Shown here: positions 27,571-36,390 of the stretch, piece by piece
Numbering within the stretch: the stretch's first letter is position 1
How the letters are laid out: every line of letters begins with the position of its first letter
Source: Tenggerimyces flavus
GTDB lineage: Bacteria; Actinomycetota; Actinomycetes; Propionibacteriales; Actinopolymorphaceae
Direction: 5' to 3'
Length of the DNA stretch: 64,000 bases
Assembly (NCBI RefSeq): GCF_016907715.1
Contig: NZ_JAFBCM010000001.1
Span: 7,603,420 to 7,667,419, forward strand
Notes under the pieces: model-generated
Databases searched by the model: none
The model's input: the letters and a program-made list of their open reading frames with translations, nothing else
What the model was told of the DNA's origin: nothing
Translations under genes and position numbers: made by a program

Positions 27571-28971
27571 TCACCATACGTCGAGGCGCAGGAGATCTTC
27601 TTCCGTTTCTCTTCTGACGATCACTCGTGCTTGGTTGTTGTCGACGGCGACGATCGCGGGCTTGGGGACGTGGTTGTAGGTGCTCGCGAGGCTGCGGCAG
27701 TAGGCGCCGGTGGCGGGCACGGCGAGCAGGTCGCCGGGGGTGACGTCGGCGGGGAGGAACTCGTCCTTGACGAGGATGTCGCCGGACTCGCAGTGCTTGC
27801 CGACGACGCGGCTGAGCGTGGGCTGCGCGTCGGACTTCCTGCTGGCGAGCGTGCAGGAGAACTCGGCGTCGTACAGCGCGGTCCGTACGTTGTCGCTCAT
27901 GCCGCCGTCGACGGCCACGTAGTTCCGGCTGGCGCCGGCATCGAGCTCGACGGGCTTGACGGTGCCGACCTCGTACAGCGTGAAGACCGCAGGGCCGGCG
28001 ATGGCGCGGCCAGGCTCGATCGACATGCGGGGCTTCTCGACGCCGTACGCCTTGCACTCGTGCTCGACGATGTCGTTCATGCCTTGGGCGAGCTTGCTCG
28101 GCGGTTGGGGGTCGTCCTGCGTGGTGTAGGCGATGCCGAAGCCACCGCCGAGGCAGAGCTCGGGCAGCGTGATGCCGTGGGTGTCGCGGATCTCGGTGAA
28201 GAGGCCGACGACCCGCTTGGCGGCCACCTCGAAACCGGAGGTGTCGTAGATCTGGGAACCGATGTGGGAGTGCAGGCCCCTGAGCTCGAGGCTGGGCTCC
28301 TTGAGGACCCGTTCGACCGCGTCGTGCGCATGGCCGCCGGCGAGCGAGAAGCCGAACTTCTGGTCCTCGTGCGCGGTGGCGATGTACTCGTGCGTGTGCG
28401 CTTCGACGCCTACCGTGACCCGTACCAGGACGCGTGCGGTGGTGTTGCGATCCGTTGCCAGCTTGGCGATTCTCGCGATCTCGTCGAACGAGTCGACCAC
28501 GATCCTGCCGATCCCTGCGTCGATCGCCCTTGCCAGCTCGTTCTCGGACTTGTTGTTGCCGTGGAACGTGATGCGCTCGGGCGGGAATTCGGCCTTGAGC
28601 GCGACGGCCAGCTCGCCGCCGGAGCAGACGTCGAGCCCGAGCCCCTCCTGCTCGATCCACTTGGCCACCTCGACACAGAGGAAAGCCTTGCCCGCGTAGT
28701 AGACATCCCACCCCGCGAACCCTTCGATGAACTCCCGGCACCTCGACCGCAGGTCCTGCTCGTCGACGACGTAGAGAGGGGTGCCGAACTCCTCCGCCAG
28801 CTGCTTGACCCGCAGCCCAGCAACCGTCAACTCCCCGTTGCCATCCTTGGCAACGTTCCGCGGCCACAGCGCGGGCACGATCGCATTGACATCCTCCGGA
28901 GCCCTCAACCAAGCCGGCCCCCGATGCCCCTGGTCGGCATGCATCGTCCCGGCCTCATGCGCTCTACTCAC
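27571..28971 (-). CDS. lysA: Diaminopimelate decarboxylase
   Basis: 466 residues from GTG 28971; ATG 28944 (MHADQGHRG) has GAGG 8 nt upstream and may be the real start. PLP lysine Lys95 (VYYAGKAF), HSHIGSQI, the glycine loop LGGGFGIAY, and the second-subunit HCESGDIL. It makes L-lysine from meso-DAP, the last lysine step, and so controls DAP left for peptidoglycan. In streptomycetes the neighbour upstream is the nrtL/response-regulator pair; here 8.3 kb of other genes intervene. Confidence 0.96.
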   Translation of the reverse strand: MSRAHEAGTMHADQGHRGPAWLRAPEDVNAIVPALWPRNVAKDGNGELTVAGLRVKQLAEEFGTPLYVVDEQDLRSRCREFIEGFAGWDVYYAGKAFLCVEVAKWIEQEGLGLDVCSGGELAVALKAEFPPERITFHGNNKSENELARAIDAGIGRIVVDSFDEIARIAKLATDRNTTARVLVRVTVGVEAHTHEYIATAHEDQKFGFSLAGGHAHDAVERVLKEPSLELRGLHSHIGSQIYDTSGFEVAAKRVVGLFTEIRDTHGITLPELCLGGGFGIAYTTQDDPQPPSKLAQGMNDIVEHECKAYGVEKPRMSIEPGRAIAGPAVFTLYEVGTVKPVELDAGASRNYVAVDGGMSDNVRTALYDAEFSCTLASRKSDAQPTLSRVVGKHCESGDILVKDEFLPADVTPGDLLAVPATGAYCRSLASTYNHVPKPAIVAVDNNQARVIVRRETEEDLLRLDVW

Positions 28972-29014
28972 CCCTCAATAATGCCGGGCAGCGCGATCAA
29001 GAAGCCAAGCGGCC

Positions 29015-29592
29015 CTAACGGACCTCGAGCACCCTGAAGTCCTTCGGGCCTGCCTCCGCGATCAACGTCGCCAACTCCCGCCGCAACAGCAGATAGCGGA
29101 ACGCCTTCCAGCCATCGCCAAACCACTCCGGACTCGCGGCAACGTCGACATCGCCCAGCTCCGGTCGCACCTCAAGGGCGGGGAGCTGCTCGTAGCTCAA
29201 GGGCTCCAGCGCCACGTTCCGCAATCGGTGCACGTTGCTCCCGGCACCCCATGCCTGGCGACCGTCCGCTCCCGCAACTCCTCCGGATCGAACCATTGGC
29301 CACCCACGCTCGGAAACACGATCTGCATAGCGCGCCCAGGTGGGGTCCCGTGCCAGTCGATCTCTCGCAACTCAACCTTGAACTGACTAGCCACCCGCTC
29401 GGCAACGGAGACCTCCATGCAGATCGTGTCGCTTTGCCAGTTCGGCTGCCACGATCCCTCGCAGCGCGATAGCCCTTTCCGCTGCAACACCAGGTTGCCG
29501 CATTGAGCATGCAATGGAGTTCCGCAGGACCGACACCAACCCTCCTCACCGAACATCGGTGTCAAACCAACGAGTCCTCCGGCCACGGCCAC
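29015..29592 (-). pseudogene. Double-CXXCG motif protein, frameshifted
   Basis: Two frames join into one protein. Frame 1 (29592-29197) has GWCRSCGTPLHAQCG, VASQFKVELREIDWHGTPPGRAMQIVF, WFDPEELRERTV and TCTDCGTWRWSP, then a stop. Frame 2 (to 29015) continues LSYEQLPALEVRPELGDVDVAASPEWFG..FRVLEVR. Adding one C in the AGCCCTTG run at ~29205-29210 restores a single frame, so this is a one-base deletion or a sequencing error. The two CxxCG motifs and the overall pattern match the double-CXXCG family (myxobacterial SitI-like proteins are members). ATG 29556 (MFGEEGWCRSCG) is the likelier start. Confidence 0.65.
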
Positions 29593-29690
29593 CCACGATG
29601 CCGCTTAACCGACAGCCAAACGAAGTCCTTCATGACGGACCAGTCAAGCAGACACGACGCAGCGCTCAGCTGGCCTCGCAGACGGTCCGT

Positions 29691-30079
29691 CTACTGCTCG
29701 ACCCACCGTTGATCCGGATCCAACGTTCCCCCACTCACAAAGCATTGGAAAGAATCCAGTGCCTGCTGAAGGGTCACTACGAATCGCCCTTCATATTGGG
29801 CAGGTTGACCTCCTGCCACAAGAGTCACTTTCCCGCTCGAGCCGTCCTGCAGATTGACCCTCTGAAAGAACGTCTGATTGTCAAAGGTTACGTACACGAC
29901 CAACTTGTCCGGAGCCGAACCCCCGCACGCGATGTGAGCGCACCACGAAACGCCATCACCAGAGTCCGATGGACGCCGTCCAGCAGCTTCACTCTCTCAG
30001 TGGCGACGTCCCCACTCTCCACGTCGATCTCATGGTGGTTGGATTCCTCATCCCAGGTGAGCTGGTAGGACTCGATCAA
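29691..30079 (-). pseudogene. Unrecognised small protein gene, frameshifted
   Basis: TTG 30079 begins IESYQLTWDEESNHHEIDVESGDVATERVKLLDGVHRTLVMAF; the frame breaks, and a second frame resumes with SAPDKLVVYVTFDNQTFFQRVNLQDG and ends DQRWVEQ at 29691. The break is near 29920-29960. Joined length would be ~125 residues, a compact alpha/beta protein. I do not recognise the family. The position, between a fragment (30115) and a full-length copy (29015) of the same double-CXXCG gene, suggests it is part of a repeated two-gene cassette. Confidence 0.45.
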
Positions 30080-30114
30080 GGTCGATCACCAACCTGCTTC
30101 TGGGCCCACGACAG

Positions 30115-30249
30115 TTAGCTCCGCCACGTTCTGCACTCCGTTGCATGTCTTTCCCGGGACCGATACCTGGCCAGAAACACGCGCTGCATCGCCTGACACG
30201 GCGGTGTGGGGTGCCAGCCAACCTCACGCAACTCGACCCGGAACTCGTC
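30115..30249 (-). pseudogene. Fragment of a second double-CXXCG gene
   Basis: DEFRVELREVGWHPTPPCQAMQRVF aligns with SQFKVELREIDWHGTPPGRAMQIVF of the gene at 29015, and ECRTWRS with DCGTWRWS. DNA also matches (GCAACG..TGC.GAACGTGGCG). The flanking N- and C-terminal parts are gone, so it is a decayed duplicate. It lacks a start codon of its own. Confidence 0.6.
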
Positions 30250-30675
30250 ACTCCGACACGAGCGGGCGCAGCGCATATCTCGCAGGCAAGTCACCCAAGA
30301 GGTAGTAGGTGGCGAACAGGTCGGCCGACTCCTCCCAGGAGAAGACCTCATGTTGACCAACTTCCACCGACGATCGGCCGTCATCCCAGGCGATGACTTC
30401 CGTCAACTTCCCTCCGCCCGCCGTTGTCGGCCTCCCGATGACGAGGTGGCCGCGTTCAGGGGACCCAGTTCGAGAGTCATCCGCTCCGCAGTTCCAGCAC
30501 TCTGAATGTACTCAACGACGTCGCTGGGATCGACATCATCTAGCGCCTTCCCTGGCGGCAATGGCCACAGGCACACCGCGAAGATGTCGACGCCATTCAT
30601 GCGGGACAACATGCCACGGAGCTCTTCTTCCACGGACCCCGCGTACCTGAACTCACCAGTGAAATCGCCGTTCAT
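30248..30675 (-). pseudogene. Unrecognised small protein gene, frameshifted
   Basis: ATG 30675 reads NGDFTGEFRYAGSVEEELRGMLSRMNGVDIFAVCLWPLPPGKALDDVDPSDVVEYIQ..MTLELGPLNA. It then shifts frame near 30440 and continues HLVIGRPTTAGGGKLTEVIAWDDG..EVFSWEESADLFATYYLLGDLPARYALRPL, ending at 30248. One added base in the GCGGCC stretch would restore ~140 residues. No family recognised; a small acidic alpha/beta protein, immunity-protein-like in size and setting (inference). Confidence 0.5.
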
Positions 30676-30725
30676 CGTTACGGCATGAGTCGGCCGCGCC
30701 TACTAGCCCCCGCCGGCCCAGCACC

Positions 30726-30927: not shown

Positions 30928-31395
30928 CTAGCCCGTGAGCACTGGGATCGCAGCCGCCGCGACAAGGGCGTTGTCAACCACCACTCTCCCCGGCCCACTA
31001 CGCAGCGAATCCAATGAACTGCAAGCGCTCACCAGCGGGATCAGACTGTCACGAATCAGCACTTCCACCACATCGACTCTGCCCGCTTCTTCGATGGAGG
31101 ACTCGAGGTCCAACAGATGGTCGATTCGAGCAGACTGATCCTCGTCGACAAGATCGTTCCATCGCGCCCTTACGTGACAGAGCCGCTCCTTCGGGAACGG
31201 CTCACCATCAAGGTCGCGAAGCAGGACGCCGAGGTTCAGGTAGTACTTGCTCGAGAGGTGCGACACCTGCAGCTCGAGGACGCAGATCGTCTCAGCGGTC
31301 GACTGATACCAGGAGTTCGATCGTCTGGTCAGGCCATGAGCCGTCAACTGCCGGTCGAAGGCGTTCTTGATGACGTCAGGACGTGCATGGGTCAT
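30928..31395 (-). CDS. DUF4304-like protein
   Basis: 155 residues. IKNAFDRQLTAHGLTRRSNSWYQSTAETICVLELQVSHLSSKYYLNLGVLL is the typical DUF4304 opening; the C-terminal part is helical. DUF4304 proteins are small cytoplasmic proteins of unknown role, often found beside polymorphic-toxin or defence genes. Its stop-side neighbour is the decayed cassette region. Its ATG 31395 overlaps the stop of the gene at 31392 by 4 nt, so these two are coupled. Confidence 0.75.
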   Translation of the reverse strand: MTHARPDVIKNAFDRQLTAHGLTRRSNSWYQSTAETICVLELQVSHLSSKYYLNLGVLLRDLDGEPFPKERLCHVRARWNDLVDEDQSARIDHLLDLESSIEEAGRVDVVEVLIRDSLIPLVSACSSLDSLRSGPGRVVVDNALVAAAAIPVLTG

Positions 31396-32201
31396 CCGGT
31401 CCGGTTCCGGCGGAGTTTGCGGCCGAGGGCGCGGCGGAGGCGCCAGAAGTGGAGGGTGACGCGGCCTAGTTTCGAGCGGCGCAGTCTGCTGTGTTGCTTG
31501 GCCAGCGTCCGCTGTTCCTGAGCCAGCTCGTCGGCCTGGCGTTCCACGTCCATCCGCGACCGGCGTTCAGCGGCCAGCGACTCGGCCAGCAGCCGGAGGT
31601 GCGCGAGCAAGGCGGACTCCGACGCGTAGCGATCCTCGGACGACGCCCCCATAGACCGCGGCGAGTACGCCGCCAGGGTGGCGGCCATCGTGGCGATCCG
31701 CGCCGACACGTTCGGCGAGGGGGTGTCGGGCCACGTTGCCGGAGTGAAGACAATGCACGGCATTCCGTCGATCACGCCCACCGAGGACCACTCCAGCCCC
31801 CGCACCTGGGAGGCCAACGCGACGTCGGAAGCGAGCACCGACGCGGGCGACACCGGCACGACCACGGCACCGCCGGACCGCAGGACCGAGCGGGTACGGG
31901 TCGCCAGCGCCACTCGGCGCGCCAGCGACAGCTCCGGCCCGTCGATCACCACAAGGTCGTACGACACATCGAGCCCGACCTCGCGCGCCAGCCCCTCGAC
32001 GTCCCACGCAGGTCCCGCGTGCACCACCCGCGCACGCTGGAAGTCCAGAGCCAGCCCCAGCCGCACACCCCAAGGCGAAGACGCGATCACCAGCAGGTCG
32101 CGCGACGGCGCGGAGAGCTCCGCGAGGGGCACGAGCCCCGTCGGCGGAACCTCAGTCATCGGCACGCGCAGCAGGGTAGCCCCGAGGGTCTGTGCCGACA
32201 T
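31392..32201 (-). CDS. Unrecognised protein, Rossmann-like with C-terminal coiled coil
   Basis: 269 residues from ATG 32201 (ATG 32159 is an alternative). The N-terminal ~140 residues look like a methyltransferase-type Rossmann fold (DLLVIASSPWGVRLGLAL, YDLVVIDGPELSLARRVAL, LRSGGAVVVPV), but no clear SAM motif. Residues ~205-245 form a charged coiled coil (LAAERRSRMDVERQADELAQEQ), then a very basic tail (SRLRRSKLGRVTL, RRALGRKLRRNRTG). It is divergent from a large glycosyltransferase gene (62 bp), suggesting a shared surface-glycan role (inference). Confidence 0.6.
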   Translation of the reverse strand: MSAQTLGATLLRVPMTEVPPTGLVPLAELSAPSRDLLVIASSPWGVRLGLALDFQRARVVHAGPAWDVEGLAREVGLDVSYDLVVIDGPELSLARRVALATRTRSVLRSGGAVVVPVSPASVLASDVALASQVRGLEWSSVGVIDGMPCIVFTPATWPDTPSPNVSARIATMAATLAAYSPRSMGASSEDRYASESALLAHLRLLAESLAAERRSRMDVERQADELAQEQRTLAKQHSRLRRSKLGRVTLHFWRLRRALGRKLRRNRTG

Positions 32202-32263
32202 CTGCGGGTTGGTAACGTAACGTCCGCTCAGATCACTGCGGGTACACGGCACCAAGGAGCGCG

Positions 32264-34384
32264 ATGGCAACCGAACAGTCGCCTGAGCGCGCGCGCCCTT
32301 GGCAGCGGCACGCGGCCGACGTTCCGGTCGACGAGGGCATCGTCGGCCGCTGGATCCACGACCTCGAGGACGCCCAGACCGAGGCCGCCCAGGCCCAGGA
32401 CCCGGCCCGCCAGGAGGACGGCGTCAGCGTCGTCGTCACGTTCGAACTGGGCGACGACGTCGCACCATGCCTGCGCTCGATCGCCGCCCAGACGATCGAC
32501 CACGACCGCTTCGAGGTCGTCGCGGTCGTCCCGCACGGGACCGACCTCGCGCCGTTCGACACGTTCGAGGCCGAACGACGGGACGTACGGCTCAGGCTCA
32601 TCGAGCTCCCCGCCACCGGCCGCTTCGCGCCACGCGACGTCGGCACGGCCGCGGCGAGGCGTACGTACACAGCGTTCCTCGCCGCCGCTGACTACCTGAG
32701 CTCGAGCTACCTCGAAACCATGCTCGACCGCACCACAACCCGCGAGATCGTCGCCGCCCACCTCGTCGACGCCGCCACGGACGCGCCGGTCGAGCACCCG
32801 CTCACCTACGTCGCCGGCAAGCTCGTCCCCACCACGTTCGCCAAGCAGGTAAGCACGAGCGACGAGATCGTCTTCCTGCTCACCTTGCTCGCGCGCTACC
32901 GGCTCGACGTCGCGCGCACCGACCAGCAGGCGACCTACTTCCGCGCGCCCCGCGTCACCCTGCGGCAAGGCCGCACCCAGGACTTCGACCTGAACGTCGC
33001 CGCGCCGATGCACACGATCGGCAAGCTCAGCGAGCTCGAGGGCACCTGTCCCCGCGAGTCGCTCGAGCTGCTCCGCGACCACATCCGCCTCGTCGCCGCG
33101 CCGATCAACGCGTACCTGAAGGAGAAGCCGGAAGATCACGATCGGGTGCTCGACCTGATCGAGAGCTACGACCTCGCCGAGTTCCCGTACGACGTTGTCA
33201 ACCGCGGGTTGGCACGCAGCCTCGCGATCTCGTACTGCTTCGTTCCGTACAACGACACCAGCGCGATCGTCATGGCCAAACGCGTCCGCGCGCGCCGCGA
33301 TCTGGTCGATGTCGTCTTCAACACAATGGACCAGACGCGCGAGATCGACCCGAGCATGCGGCGGATCTCCAGCCCGTTCGTCGAGGACGAGATCCCGATC
33401 GCGACGCCGACGCGCTGGTCGAGCTGGCCGCGGATCGACGAGTTCCGGCTCGAGGGCATGCGCCGGATCGAAGCGCTGGAGGCTCAGAAGGGCCCGTACG
33501 CCAAGCTCTACAGCCGCGTGATGTGGCCGGCCTCGCAGTTCCTCGCGGCGTCGTACAAGCTGCACAACCCGTCGGTCACCTGGGTCGCGGAGTTCTCCGA
33601 CCCGGTGTCGCGCGACGTGACCGGTGCCGAACGGGGAACGCCCATCGAGGACGGGCCGTTCCTCGACGCGGTGCACGACGAGCTGAAGAAGCGCGGACTC
33701 CCCGTGCTCGACTCGGACAACCTGATGGCCTGGTGCGAGTACCTCGCGTACACGCTCGCCGACCGGATCGTGTTCACGAACGAGAACCAGCTCGAGTACA
33801 TGCTGAGCTACTGCCCGGTGCCCGAGCTCGTGCCGCTCGTTCGCGCGAAGACCGTCGTCTCACCGCACCCGTCCCTGCCGCCGCGGTTCTACTCGATGAG
33901 CGAGCAGACCTACCCGCTCGACCCGTCGGCCGCGCACCTCGCCTACTTCGGCAACTTCTACGCGACGCGCGGGCTGGGCGACCTACTGAACGCCCTTGCG
34001 GGGTTGGACGAACCGACCAAGTCCAGGCTGCACCTGCACGTGTTCACCGGGAACGCCGACGACCTCCGCACGCATGTGAAGTCACTCGGCATCGAGGACA
34101 ACGTGCACATCAACCCGTACGTGCGGTTCCTCGCGTTCCTCAACCTGACCACGAAGTTCGACTGCCTCATCGTCAACGACGCCTTGACGGCGGACAGCCA
34201 CGCCAAGAACCCTTACCTGCCGTCAAAGTGGAGTGACTACAAGGGCAGCGGCCGCCCGGTCTGGGGCTTGATCGAGGACGGCAGCCCCCTGAGCAAGCAG
34301 CCCCTGACGTACTCCTCCCCCGTCGGCGACCTGCAAGCAGCACAAGAGATCCTGCGCAAGCTCGCTCAGAGCAAGATGTCCTGA
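32264..34384 (+). CDS. Large two-domain glycosyltransferase (GT2-like N-terminus)
   Basis: 706 residues; ATG 32264 with AAGGAG 5 nt upstream. N-terminal GT-A-like region (~53-200: VSVVVTFELGDDVAPCLRSIAAQT, then DYLSSSYLETML in place of the usual acceptor region). C-terminal GT-B-like half (~400-700) with TWVAEFSDPVSRDV, DRIVFTNENQLEYML, HLAYFGNFYATRGLGDLLNAL, a GT4-type layout. It probably builds a surface polysaccharide or glycosylates wall polymer; donor unknown. The gene ends tail-to-tail with the next glycosyltransferase, overlapping by 19 bp. Confidence 0.75.
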   Translation: MATEQSPERARPWQRHAADVPVDEGIVGRWIHDLEDAQTEAAQAQDPARQEDGVSVVVTFELGDDVAPCLRSIAAQTIDHDRFEVVAVVPHGTDLAPFDTFEAERRDVRLRLIELPATGRFAPRDVGTAAARRTYTAFLAAADYLSSSYLETMLDRTTTREIVAAHLVDAATDAPVEHPLTYVAGKLVPTTFAKQVSTSDEIVFLLTLLARYRLDVARTDQQATYFRAPRVTLRQGRTQDFDLNVAAPMHTIGKLSELEGTCPRESLELLRDHIRLVAAPINAYLKEKPEDHDRVLDLIESYDLAEFPYDVVNRGLARSLAISYCFVPYNDTSAIVMAKRVRARRDLVDVVFNTMDQTREIDPSMRRISSPFVEDEIPIATPTRWSSWPRIDEFRLEGMRRIEALEAQKGPYAKLYSRVMWPASQFLAASYKLHNPSVTWVAEFSDPVSRDVTGAERGTPIEDGPFLDAVHDELKKRGLPVLDSDNLMAWCEYLAYTLADRIVFTNENQLEYMLSYCPVPELVPLVRAKTVVSPHPSLPPRFYSMSEQTYPLDPSAAHLAYFGNFYATRGLGDLLNALAGLDEPTKSRLHLHVFTGNADDLRTHVKSLGIEDNVHINPYVRFLAFLNLTTKFDCLIVNDALTADSHAKNPYLPSKWSDYKGSGRPVWGLIEDGSPLSKQPLTYSSPVGDLQAAQEILRKLAQSKMS

Positions 34385-36390
34385 TACTTCGGACGGATCA
34401 CGGTCCAGTCGAAGTGCTCGACGACGTACGAACGGGCGGCCGCGCCTGCCTTCGCGCGCACTTCGGGGTCGGCGTGGGCGAGGATGCGCTGGACGGCTTC
34501 GTCGACGTCGTCGACGACCCAGTCGGGCGGGAACGTTCCGCGGGCACCGCCGTAGTGGGCGTACATCGGCCAGTTGCGCACCACCGGCACCGCGCCCGAC
34601 GCAGCGCCCTCCGTCACCCCGACCGGGAAGCCCTCCCGCCGGCTCGAGCTCAGGACGAAGCCCGCCGCCTGCAACGCCGCCGGCACGTCGTCGGTGAACG
34701 GCAGATACCGGATCCCGTCCCGTACCTCATCCAACACAGCCCGCGCCCGGAACTTGTCCCGATGCCGCATCGCCGAAAGATGCGCTCGGTCCTGAAAGTC
34801 TCGGCCCATGAGCAGCAACTTCCAGGAAGGATCCACCGCACGCAACGCGGCGAGAACGTCCAACGCCCACAGGGGATCCTTCACGCGCTGCGCCCAACCG
34901 ACGATCGCGATCGTACGGTCGGCACCCGGTGCCTTCGGCGCCCCGAAGCGCTCCAAATGCATCGCGTTCGGCGCCACGTGGACCCGCGGACCCACCGCAA
35001 CTTCCGGGGCCGCCTGGCTGACCAGCGCACGGACGTGGTCCGCCACGAACACCACGTCCGACACCCGCGACCAGTCGATCACGTGCACCTGGTGCGAAAT
35101 CGCCTCCAGGCTGTGGAATCGCACCGCGATACGCGCCGAGCGCGGCGCGTGCAGAGTCGTCCACACCGCGGCGTTGTCGCACCAGTCGACAAAGATCGTG
35201 TCCGCCCACTCCAGCAGCGCGGCGTCGGCCGGCGCGGGCGGCGGAACGGCCGCGCCCGTCGCGGCACGGAGCCGGTCGAGGATCAGGTCGTACTGCCCAC
35301 GTCGCCGGGGCGGCGTCGCCTTCGCCTTCAGGTCGAGGACGCGAACCTCCAAGCCAGGAAGGCCGGAGAACTCCTCGATGATCGGCTTGGTGAAGTTCGG
35401 ATAGTCCCCCGGAACGATCAGCAGCCGCTCGGTCCGCGTGGGCGAGACTCCCGAGGATTCGGCGGAAGTTCCGAGAACGCCGAACACCCGTGACTCCCGC
35501 AGCGGCGCGAGGAAGGCATCTGGGTCGGCGGCCAGCGGGCTCGCCAGGACGTCGGCATGCAGCTCGCGGTTGAACAGAGCCTCGACAGCCTCCAGTACCC
35601 GGTTCGCCGCAACCTCGAGTGACCCCGCGTCGAGCGCCTCGTCCGCCTGCCGCAGGACCGCGCGGACCAGGTCGCCCAGGTCGGCGGGAGCGGGTTCGCC
35701 GCAGCTCACCAACGCCGTCGCGAGCTCAAGCTCCGTACGTTCCCGGACGTCGGCAGGCAACGCGAGACCGAGACCCGACGAGGCAACCTCGCGAGCCTCG
35801 GCGAACGAGAGATTCCGCCGCAACAGTTGGGCAATCGTCGCCGCGTGCGGCACGAACTCCGCCAACGTGGCGTCGCCGGGAGACGACACCACAGCCCGCC
35901 AGGCGGCGACCACGCTCGCCGGACTCGCCGCGGTCATCCCCCGGTCGAGCAGCTTGCGCAACGTCGTCGCCGGCCCGCCGCGGGCGGCGACCAGAGGAAG
36001 GGCGTCGAGCCCGACCGCGGCGATCCGAGCCTCGGCGTTGGCGCTCGTCGCCTGCCGGACAGCCCACGCTGCCGCACGATCCACCGCGACCACGGCATCC
36101 GCGCGCCGCCCCTCGGTCCGCAGCCAGGGGTCGTACTTCGCGTACAGGAACGTCCGGGCAGCGGCCCCGCCGAGCCGACCGGCCAACCGCACAGCGGTGG
36201 ACCGGACCAGCCCCGCCGACTTGAACCGAAGCCGTCGCGCCTCGACACCCTCAGCGGGCGGAGGCAGCGAGCTGACGTCGTACGCATGCCCGATCCGCAC
36301 GACGTGCCCCGCGGCGACGAGGCGCGCCGCCAGCTCGCGGGCGCTCGTCCAGCCGCGAGGAAGGGCGGAGATCAGCAGTACCTCGGTCAC
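34366..36390 (-). CDS. Glycosyltransferase, GT4-like
   Basis: 674 residues, GTG start. N-terminal MTEVLLISALPRGWTSARELAARLVAAGHVV is a GT-B nucleotide-fold opening; the C-terminal half has RTIAIVGWAQRVKDPLWALDVLAAL, LLLMGRDF, and SSSRREGFPVGVTEGAASGAVPVVRNWPM, the GT4 donor-binding E-x7-E-like region. A middle segment (~130-300) is a helical insertion. Substrate unknown; adjacency suggests joint work with the 32264 enzyme. It lies 24 bp downstream of the gene at 36414 on the same strand. Confidence 0.8.
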   Translation of the reverse strand: MTEVLLISALPRGWTSARELAARLVAAGHVVRIGHAYDVSSLPPPAEGVEARRLRFKSAGLVRSTAVRLAGRLGGAAARTFLYAKYDPWLRTEGRRADAVVAVDRAAAWAVRQATSANAEARIAAVGLDALPLVAARGGPATTLRKLLDRGMTAASPASVVAAWRAVVSSPGDATLAEFVPHAATIAQLLRRNLSFAEAREVASSGLGLALPADVRERTELELATALVSCGEPAPADLGDLVRAVLRQADEALDAGSLEVAANRVLEAVEALFNRELHADVLASPLAADPDAFLAPLRESRVFGVLGTSAESSGVSPTRTERLLIVPGDYPNFTKPIIEEFSGLPGLEVRVLDLKAKATPPRRRGQYDLILDRLRAATGAAVPPPAPADAALLEWADTIFVDWCDNAAVWTTLHAPRSARIAVRFHSLEAISHQVHVIDWSRVSDVVFVADHVRALVSQAAPEVAVGPRVHVAPNAMHLERFGAPKAPGADRTIAIVGWAQRVKDPLWALDVLAALRAVDPSWKLLLMGRDFQDRAHLSAMRHRDKFRARAVLDEVRDGIRYLPFTDDVPAALQAAGFVLSSSRREGFPVGVTEGAASGAVPVVRNWPMYAHYGGARGTFPPDWVVDDVDEAVQRILAHADPEVRAKAGAAARSYVVEHFDWTVIRPKYQDILL

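Follow-up and report, generated by a model that had tools for sequence, protein, structure and literature searches.

Heterogeneous polyimmunity loci were described in 2012 as runs of immunity genes in same-strand order, closely spaced and without toxins (sections of Zhang et al., PMC3482391). In the same sections, SCP1.201 deaminases appear together with Imm1, and Tox-AHH together with Imm11 (PMC3482391). The Imm11 prototype is MXAN_0049, which binds and neutralises the AHH nuclease MXAN_0050, and its clan includes double_CXXCG (PF09535), the SitA6 neighbour (in the parts of PMC12077181 and PMC12077131 that we drew on). The pMF1 pair (pMF1.20/pMF1.19) was named SitA6/SitI6 (PMC7843461, in part). 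In our scans this pair matches PF09533 and PF09535, with pMF1.19 reaching 1.8e-68 against PF09535. Within the open-licence literature, we found no paper joining CXXCG, an immunity protein and a toxin, and no report that connects DUF4304 with immunity.

In this study, we analysed a 64,000-nucleotide stretch (the window) of the single-contig 8.52 Mb chromosome of Tenggerimyces flavus. Upstream of a gene at 27571-28971, which we take to be lysA (a name given from the sequence by eye), lies a head-to-tail series of decayed minus-strand genes (Table 1). In our view, these genes probably represent a small, heterogeneous polyimmunity islet in decay, probably gained horizontally. An intact DUF4304 gene adjoins them, and it is a guess that it might be the last intact member of the islet.

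Table 1. Features upstream of the presumed lysA gene, in positions of the window.
Feature	Position	Strand	Basis and remarks
double-CXXCG immunity pseudogene	29015..29633	-	frame reading, intact homologues, fold match to MXAN_0049; stop codon 29015-29017; breaks near 29570 and 29207; unmodelled branch, predicted fold Imm11-like
Imm1-like immunity pseudogene	29691..30079	-	break near 29940-29957; homology to L048
second double-CXXCG gene remnant	30118..30249	-	middle part only, internal gaps; homology to downstream copy
U1 pseudogene, unmodelled immunity family	30251..30696	-	break near 30450-30466; partner tip in L057, L062, partly L054
intact DUF4304 gene	30928..31395	-	PF14137, 3e-11; G+C 0.596; adjoins decayed genes

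Reading all frames recovered the four minus-strand pieces where a sequence-only reading of the window had placed them. The broken genes share this strand throughout, and the widest gap between them is about 60 bases. That reading had called 30675-30248 and 30079-29691 frameshifted, and one frame change was found in each (30675-30251 and 30079-29691); homology of the former gene, here called U1, begins about 7 codons upstream of the ATG at 30675. The downstream double-CXXCG gene had been given a start at 29592 and a single frameshift, which has to be revised: it starts with an ATG at 29633 and carries two breaks, because the N-terminal stretch conserved among homologues (MKDFVWL...RGWPWPEDS) begins at 29633 in a separate frame. 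The upstream double-CXXCG fragment, proposed at 30249-30115, was borne out, with 30249-30118 being homologous to the downstream gene at 41% identity over 61 residues (E 1.8e-7). Among 901 reading-frame segments of at least 30 aa outside 29000-29700, the segment of this fragment scored 108 against 47 for the next best, and none of 2000 shuffles reached the score of 105 of the trimmed fragment (shuffle maximum 54). Both the N-terminal CXXCG part and the last third of the protein are missing from the fragment, whose internal gaps sum to 17 residues. In NCBIfam and Pfam scans at E up to 10, which are non-exhaustive as HMMER filters discard weak matches, no immunity family was assigned to the broken pieces. 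A weak zf-ChsH2 match to the window double-CXXCG piece (0.0014) lies below the cut-off. The PF09535 and PF14430 profiles had no match in the T. flavus genome and were silent in control genomes too, and are hence uninformative here.

Intact homologues of the double-CXXCG gene, for which the sequence-only reading had proposed a search, are present in other genomes. The protein query was matched in 8 of 394 genomes, comprising T. flavus and seven others (G163 and G290 weakly), and at 12 loci of the species collection. The set used for neighbourhood analysis comprises 17 loci (L005/L066, L006/L065, L007/L067, L008, L011-L022 and L102); L004 and L011 denote one place and count as a single locus, and L009 and L010 were left out. 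Two loci, L010 and L030, were dropped as by eye they sit inside unrelated enzymes, and L009/L068 was too distant to count as a family member. At the latter (L068:4711-5535), a distant 274-aa protein with CXXC pairs and no Pfam match stands behind genes that by eye resemble T7SS cargo. Plasmid records searched with tblastn held no double-CXXCG gene. In an alignment of 13 members, cysteines 35, 73, 136 and 139 are invariant and cysteine 38 nearly so. Zinc-finger profiles match weakly, zf-ChsH2 in 8 of the 13 homologues (best 0.019) and zf-CW in one (1.9e-4). Searching PDB chains with the family profile gave nothing at E 1, the two matches beyond it being artificial zinc fingers (E 3.6 and 7.6).

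The sequence-only reading had pointed out that SitI-type immunity proteins are among the double-CXXCG proteins. Membership of PF09535 did not hold, since none of the 13 homologues scored above the cut-off of this profile and hhalign against one genuine PF09535 member gave a probability of 0.2%; profiles and hhalign gave no sequence-level link to Imm11 or PF09535. The predicted fold nevertheless points to the same clan. The AlphaFold model of the family (pLDDT 78, pTM 0.81) had MXAN_0049 as its top Foldseek match, with E 8e-3 (next best 1.7), probability 0.93 and TM 0.44. Of the 690 chains compared in VIA-align, MXAN_0049 alone had a Z of at least 2, reaching Z 8.1 over 166 residues at 8% identity, although a Z near 8 alone is borderline by the program's own note and could reflect a common arrangement. 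The model suggests that the double-CXXCG family shares its fold with the Imm11 prototype and belongs near the Imm11/double_CXXCG clan.

At 5 of the 17 loci, from four genomes, the double-CXXCG gene is immediately preceded by one toxin-like tip (L012, L013, L015, L016 and L017). The distance from the tip end to the gene is 2 to about 70 bases, and in L017, a Microbacterium locus, the stop of the tip protein and the start codon of the gene overlap. The L017 carrier, the only one that could be typed, is an Rhs protein (RHS_repeat and Rhs_assc_core), and its tip reads AHHLIEQRF...W...H. In L012, the AHH tip ends a 578-aa frame directly upstream that has no family match. The AHH signature is complete in these two of the five loci; the frame is shorter in L015 and L016, both from one Cryobacterium strain, where DHL replaces AHH, and in L013 only the later part of the tip is matched, the AHH region being absent from the match. 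On the Cryobacterium contig of L015 (1793-1916), the N-terminal stretch of the double-CXXCG protein occurs twice in tandem. In L011 and L019, a further small gene stands between confirmed Rhs genes and the double-CXXCG gene downstream of them. No toxin was recognised at nine of the 17 loci, among them L021, which is partial, and L022, which is cut by a contig edge. Downstream of the double-CXXCG gene of L102 lies a gene whose tip is related (29% over 78 residues) and lacks the HH motif. This 207-aa gene (L102:4569-5192) perhaps represents a toxin domain that is inactive and has been retained with a different function. The tip beside the double-CXXCG genes was not matched by PF14412, and a weak alignment to pMF1.20 spans the HH motif and is not significant. 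The partner statistics are small, because among the 388 genomes of one family at least one was matched by the double-CXXCG profile (at most eight candidates scored per genome), and tip profile A4, run without a positive control, was found in 0 of 394. From the adjacency in 5 of 17 loci and the modelled fold, we infer that double-CXXCG proteins may neutralise an AHH-type or SitA6-type nuclease.

Relatives of U1 (30696-30251) occur in 9 of 394 genomes, that is, in T. flavus and eight others. The two relatives that were scanned had no Pfam or NCBIfam match, and the structure model was unusable (pLDDT 47). Directly upstream of U1, a common tip is found in 3 of 11 loci, whole in L057 and L062 and partial in L054, where the tip copy ends two bases ahead of the U1 relative. 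In L057, the preceding protein bears the T7SS secretion signal PF21725 (T7SS_signal), and U1 overlaps its end. In L062, U1 stands behind two WXG100 genes and an effector that contains a WXG100_2 domain, and the tip is 38% identical over 110 residues. These tips have no significant Pfam match and carry a D-[x]n-E-x-K spacing, which we take to resemble that of PD-(D/E)XK nucleases. A further remnant of the tip, next to U1 in L056, was noted by visual inspection alone and left out of the counts. At L055:5552-7247, three U1 copies stand in tandem, the first of them apparently frameshifted near its end. No T7SS_signal was found in the T. flavus genome, and control genomes were silent too. The link to a WXG-type toxin, which had been put forward for the locus, holds for the gene at 30675-30251, through its relatives in L057 and L062. 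In the window, neither partner tip was found.

The gene at 30079-29691 has relatives in 8 of 394 genomes (T. flavus and seven others); the one in G098 sits within an unrelated enzyme. Its best relative, L048 (33-40% identical), matches PF14430 Imm1 at 8.8e-10, and another, L053, falls narrowly below the Imm1 cut-off. Judged by this homology to an Imm1 protein, the window gene is probably a diverged Imm1, albeit frameshifted and below detection by the Imm1 profile, which did not match it. A recognised toxin was present in none of the six Imm1-type loci that were fetched.

Seven relatives from other genera of the family all have lysA, accompanied by homologues of the next three upstream genes (31392-36390). 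Within about 9 kb upstream of lysA, the islet genes are absent from all seven (E 1e-3), and 1.2-3.2 kb of different sequence occupies the site; the double-CXXCG gene had no match anywhere in these seven genomes. The islet has a G+C content of 0.57-0.63 compared with 0.689 for the window, and no recombinase was recognised beside it.

The sequence-only reading had suspected a graveyard of immunity genes, and the comparisons agree with it: elsewhere, some intact members of the double-CXXCG and U1 families directly follow toxin genes (for an Rhs protein in L017; for WXG/T7SS effectors in L057 and L062), and a further piece is related to Imm1. We propose that antidote genes of at least three families, namely double-CXXCG (with an Imm11-like predicted fold and in two unequal copies), Imm1 and U1, and perhaps also DUF4304, came to stand head-to-tail beside lysA, without their toxins and probably by horizontal transfer. 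When intact, these antidotes would act in the cytoplasm, where they would bind to the C-terminal toxin domain that a rival bacterium delivers, and block it. The double-CXXCG protein would be directed against putative nuclease tips with the AHH signature (Rhs-borne in the single locus with a typed carrier), U1 against the tip of WXG/T7SS effectors that looks like a PD-(D/E)XK nuclease, and Imm1 against its own toxin class; for such binding, adjacency in related loci and the predicted fold are suggestive. As orphan genes, they may have come under relaxed selection, potentially because the cell neither carried a cognate toxin nor faced a constant challenge, and frameshifts and deletions would then have accumulated.

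Alternatively, the islet might be what remains of the 3' end of an earlier Rhs or T7SS toxin locus, in which successive toxin tips had been displaced along with their immunity genes and from which the toxin gene was later deleted. The arrangement in L011 and L019, in which Rhs genes are followed by another small gene and a double-CXXCG gene, would fit such an origin, and at least four Rhs-repeat genes exist in the T. flavus genome, of which the nearest lies at a distance of about 0.19 Mb. One of these lies at 7.41 Mb (L079). However, no toxin locus is visible in the window, because the two partner tips (those of the double-CXXCG and U1 families) have no match there. Furthermore, the carriers indicated by the immunity families differ, Rhs in one case and T7SS in the other, and 14-kb stretches around four Rhs genes hold none of the islet immunity genes at E 0.01. 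We therefore regard this origin as rather unlikely. It is highly improbable that the genes are in fact intact and the frame breaks assembly errors. The three longer genes are broken by simple frame changes, as such errors would produce, but four frame breaks, one two-sided truncation and internal gaps fall within 1.7 kb, the longest homopolymer near a break is 4, and the neighbouring lysA and DUF4304 frames are open, so that sequencing error is an unlikely cause of the lesions.

The sequence-only reading had also described a duplicated cassette. This is contradicted by the two upstream small genes, which belong to different families (Imm1-like and U1); hhalign between the U1 and Imm1 sets, which are shallow alignments, gave a probability of 1.2%, and the longest direct DNA repeat found was 20 nt at 85%. 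The companion idea of an unrecognised two-gene system of a small gene and a double-CXXCG gene, duplicated and now decaying, is largely refuted and least credible of all, for although the order occurs twice in the window and a small gene of other sequence also directly precedes the double-CXXCG gene in L011 and L019, the two small genes of the window are unrelated and neither of their families was found together with a double-CXXCG gene in any of 34 other fetched loci (most 3.5-20 kb long, searched both ways) or in L102.

As a decaying polyimmunity islet, the locus resembles the described polyimmunity loci in having unrelated immunity families in tandem (Imm1, double-CXXCG and U1, assigned by homology only), on the same strand, closely spaced and with no partner-tip match between them. 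Its content likewise varies among relatives, the islet being absent from all seven, although these are of other genera. It differs in being small, mostly made of pseudogenes and without a recognised adjacent recombinase, and two of its families have no Pfam or NCBIfam match. With the AHH/Imm11 pair (MXAN_0050/MXAN_0049, PF14412/PF07791), the double-CXXCG family shares the predicted fold of MXAN_0049 and, in L012 and L017, a partner tip with the AHH signature. In contrast, sequence identity is as low as 8%, the tip is unmatched by PF14412, the family has conserved CXXC cysteines (read in the double-CXXCG family alone), and the partner in L017 sits on an Rhs protein instead of a T6SS or lipoprotein toxin. 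The family shares with SitA6/SitI6 the two CXXC motifs (CXXCG in most cases) and a small partner in which an HH motif occurs, but neither a profile match nor a significant hhalign link connects that pair with the double-CXXCG family or its tip.

On balance, we lean towards the view that the double-CXXCG genes form an unnamed third branch of the Imm11/double-CXXCG clan in Actinobacteria, which may bind zinc and act against a short, partly Rhs-borne AHH tip, and that U1 represents an unnamed family acting against a new nuclease tip found on WXG/T7SS effectors. Neither pair has a match in Pfam or NCBIfam. The new element is limited to these two immunity branches and their tips, which are unmodelled in the family libraries used; the kind of locus is already known. 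The window locus itself is decayed and ordinary, and what it supplies are two testable toxin-immunity pairs without family models. It suggests that the double-CXXCG/Imm11-type antidote of Myxococcus kin discrimination has an actinobacterial branch that is at least once linked to Rhs. It also suggests that antidotes of this type frequently have no recognisable toxin beside them and can be lost.
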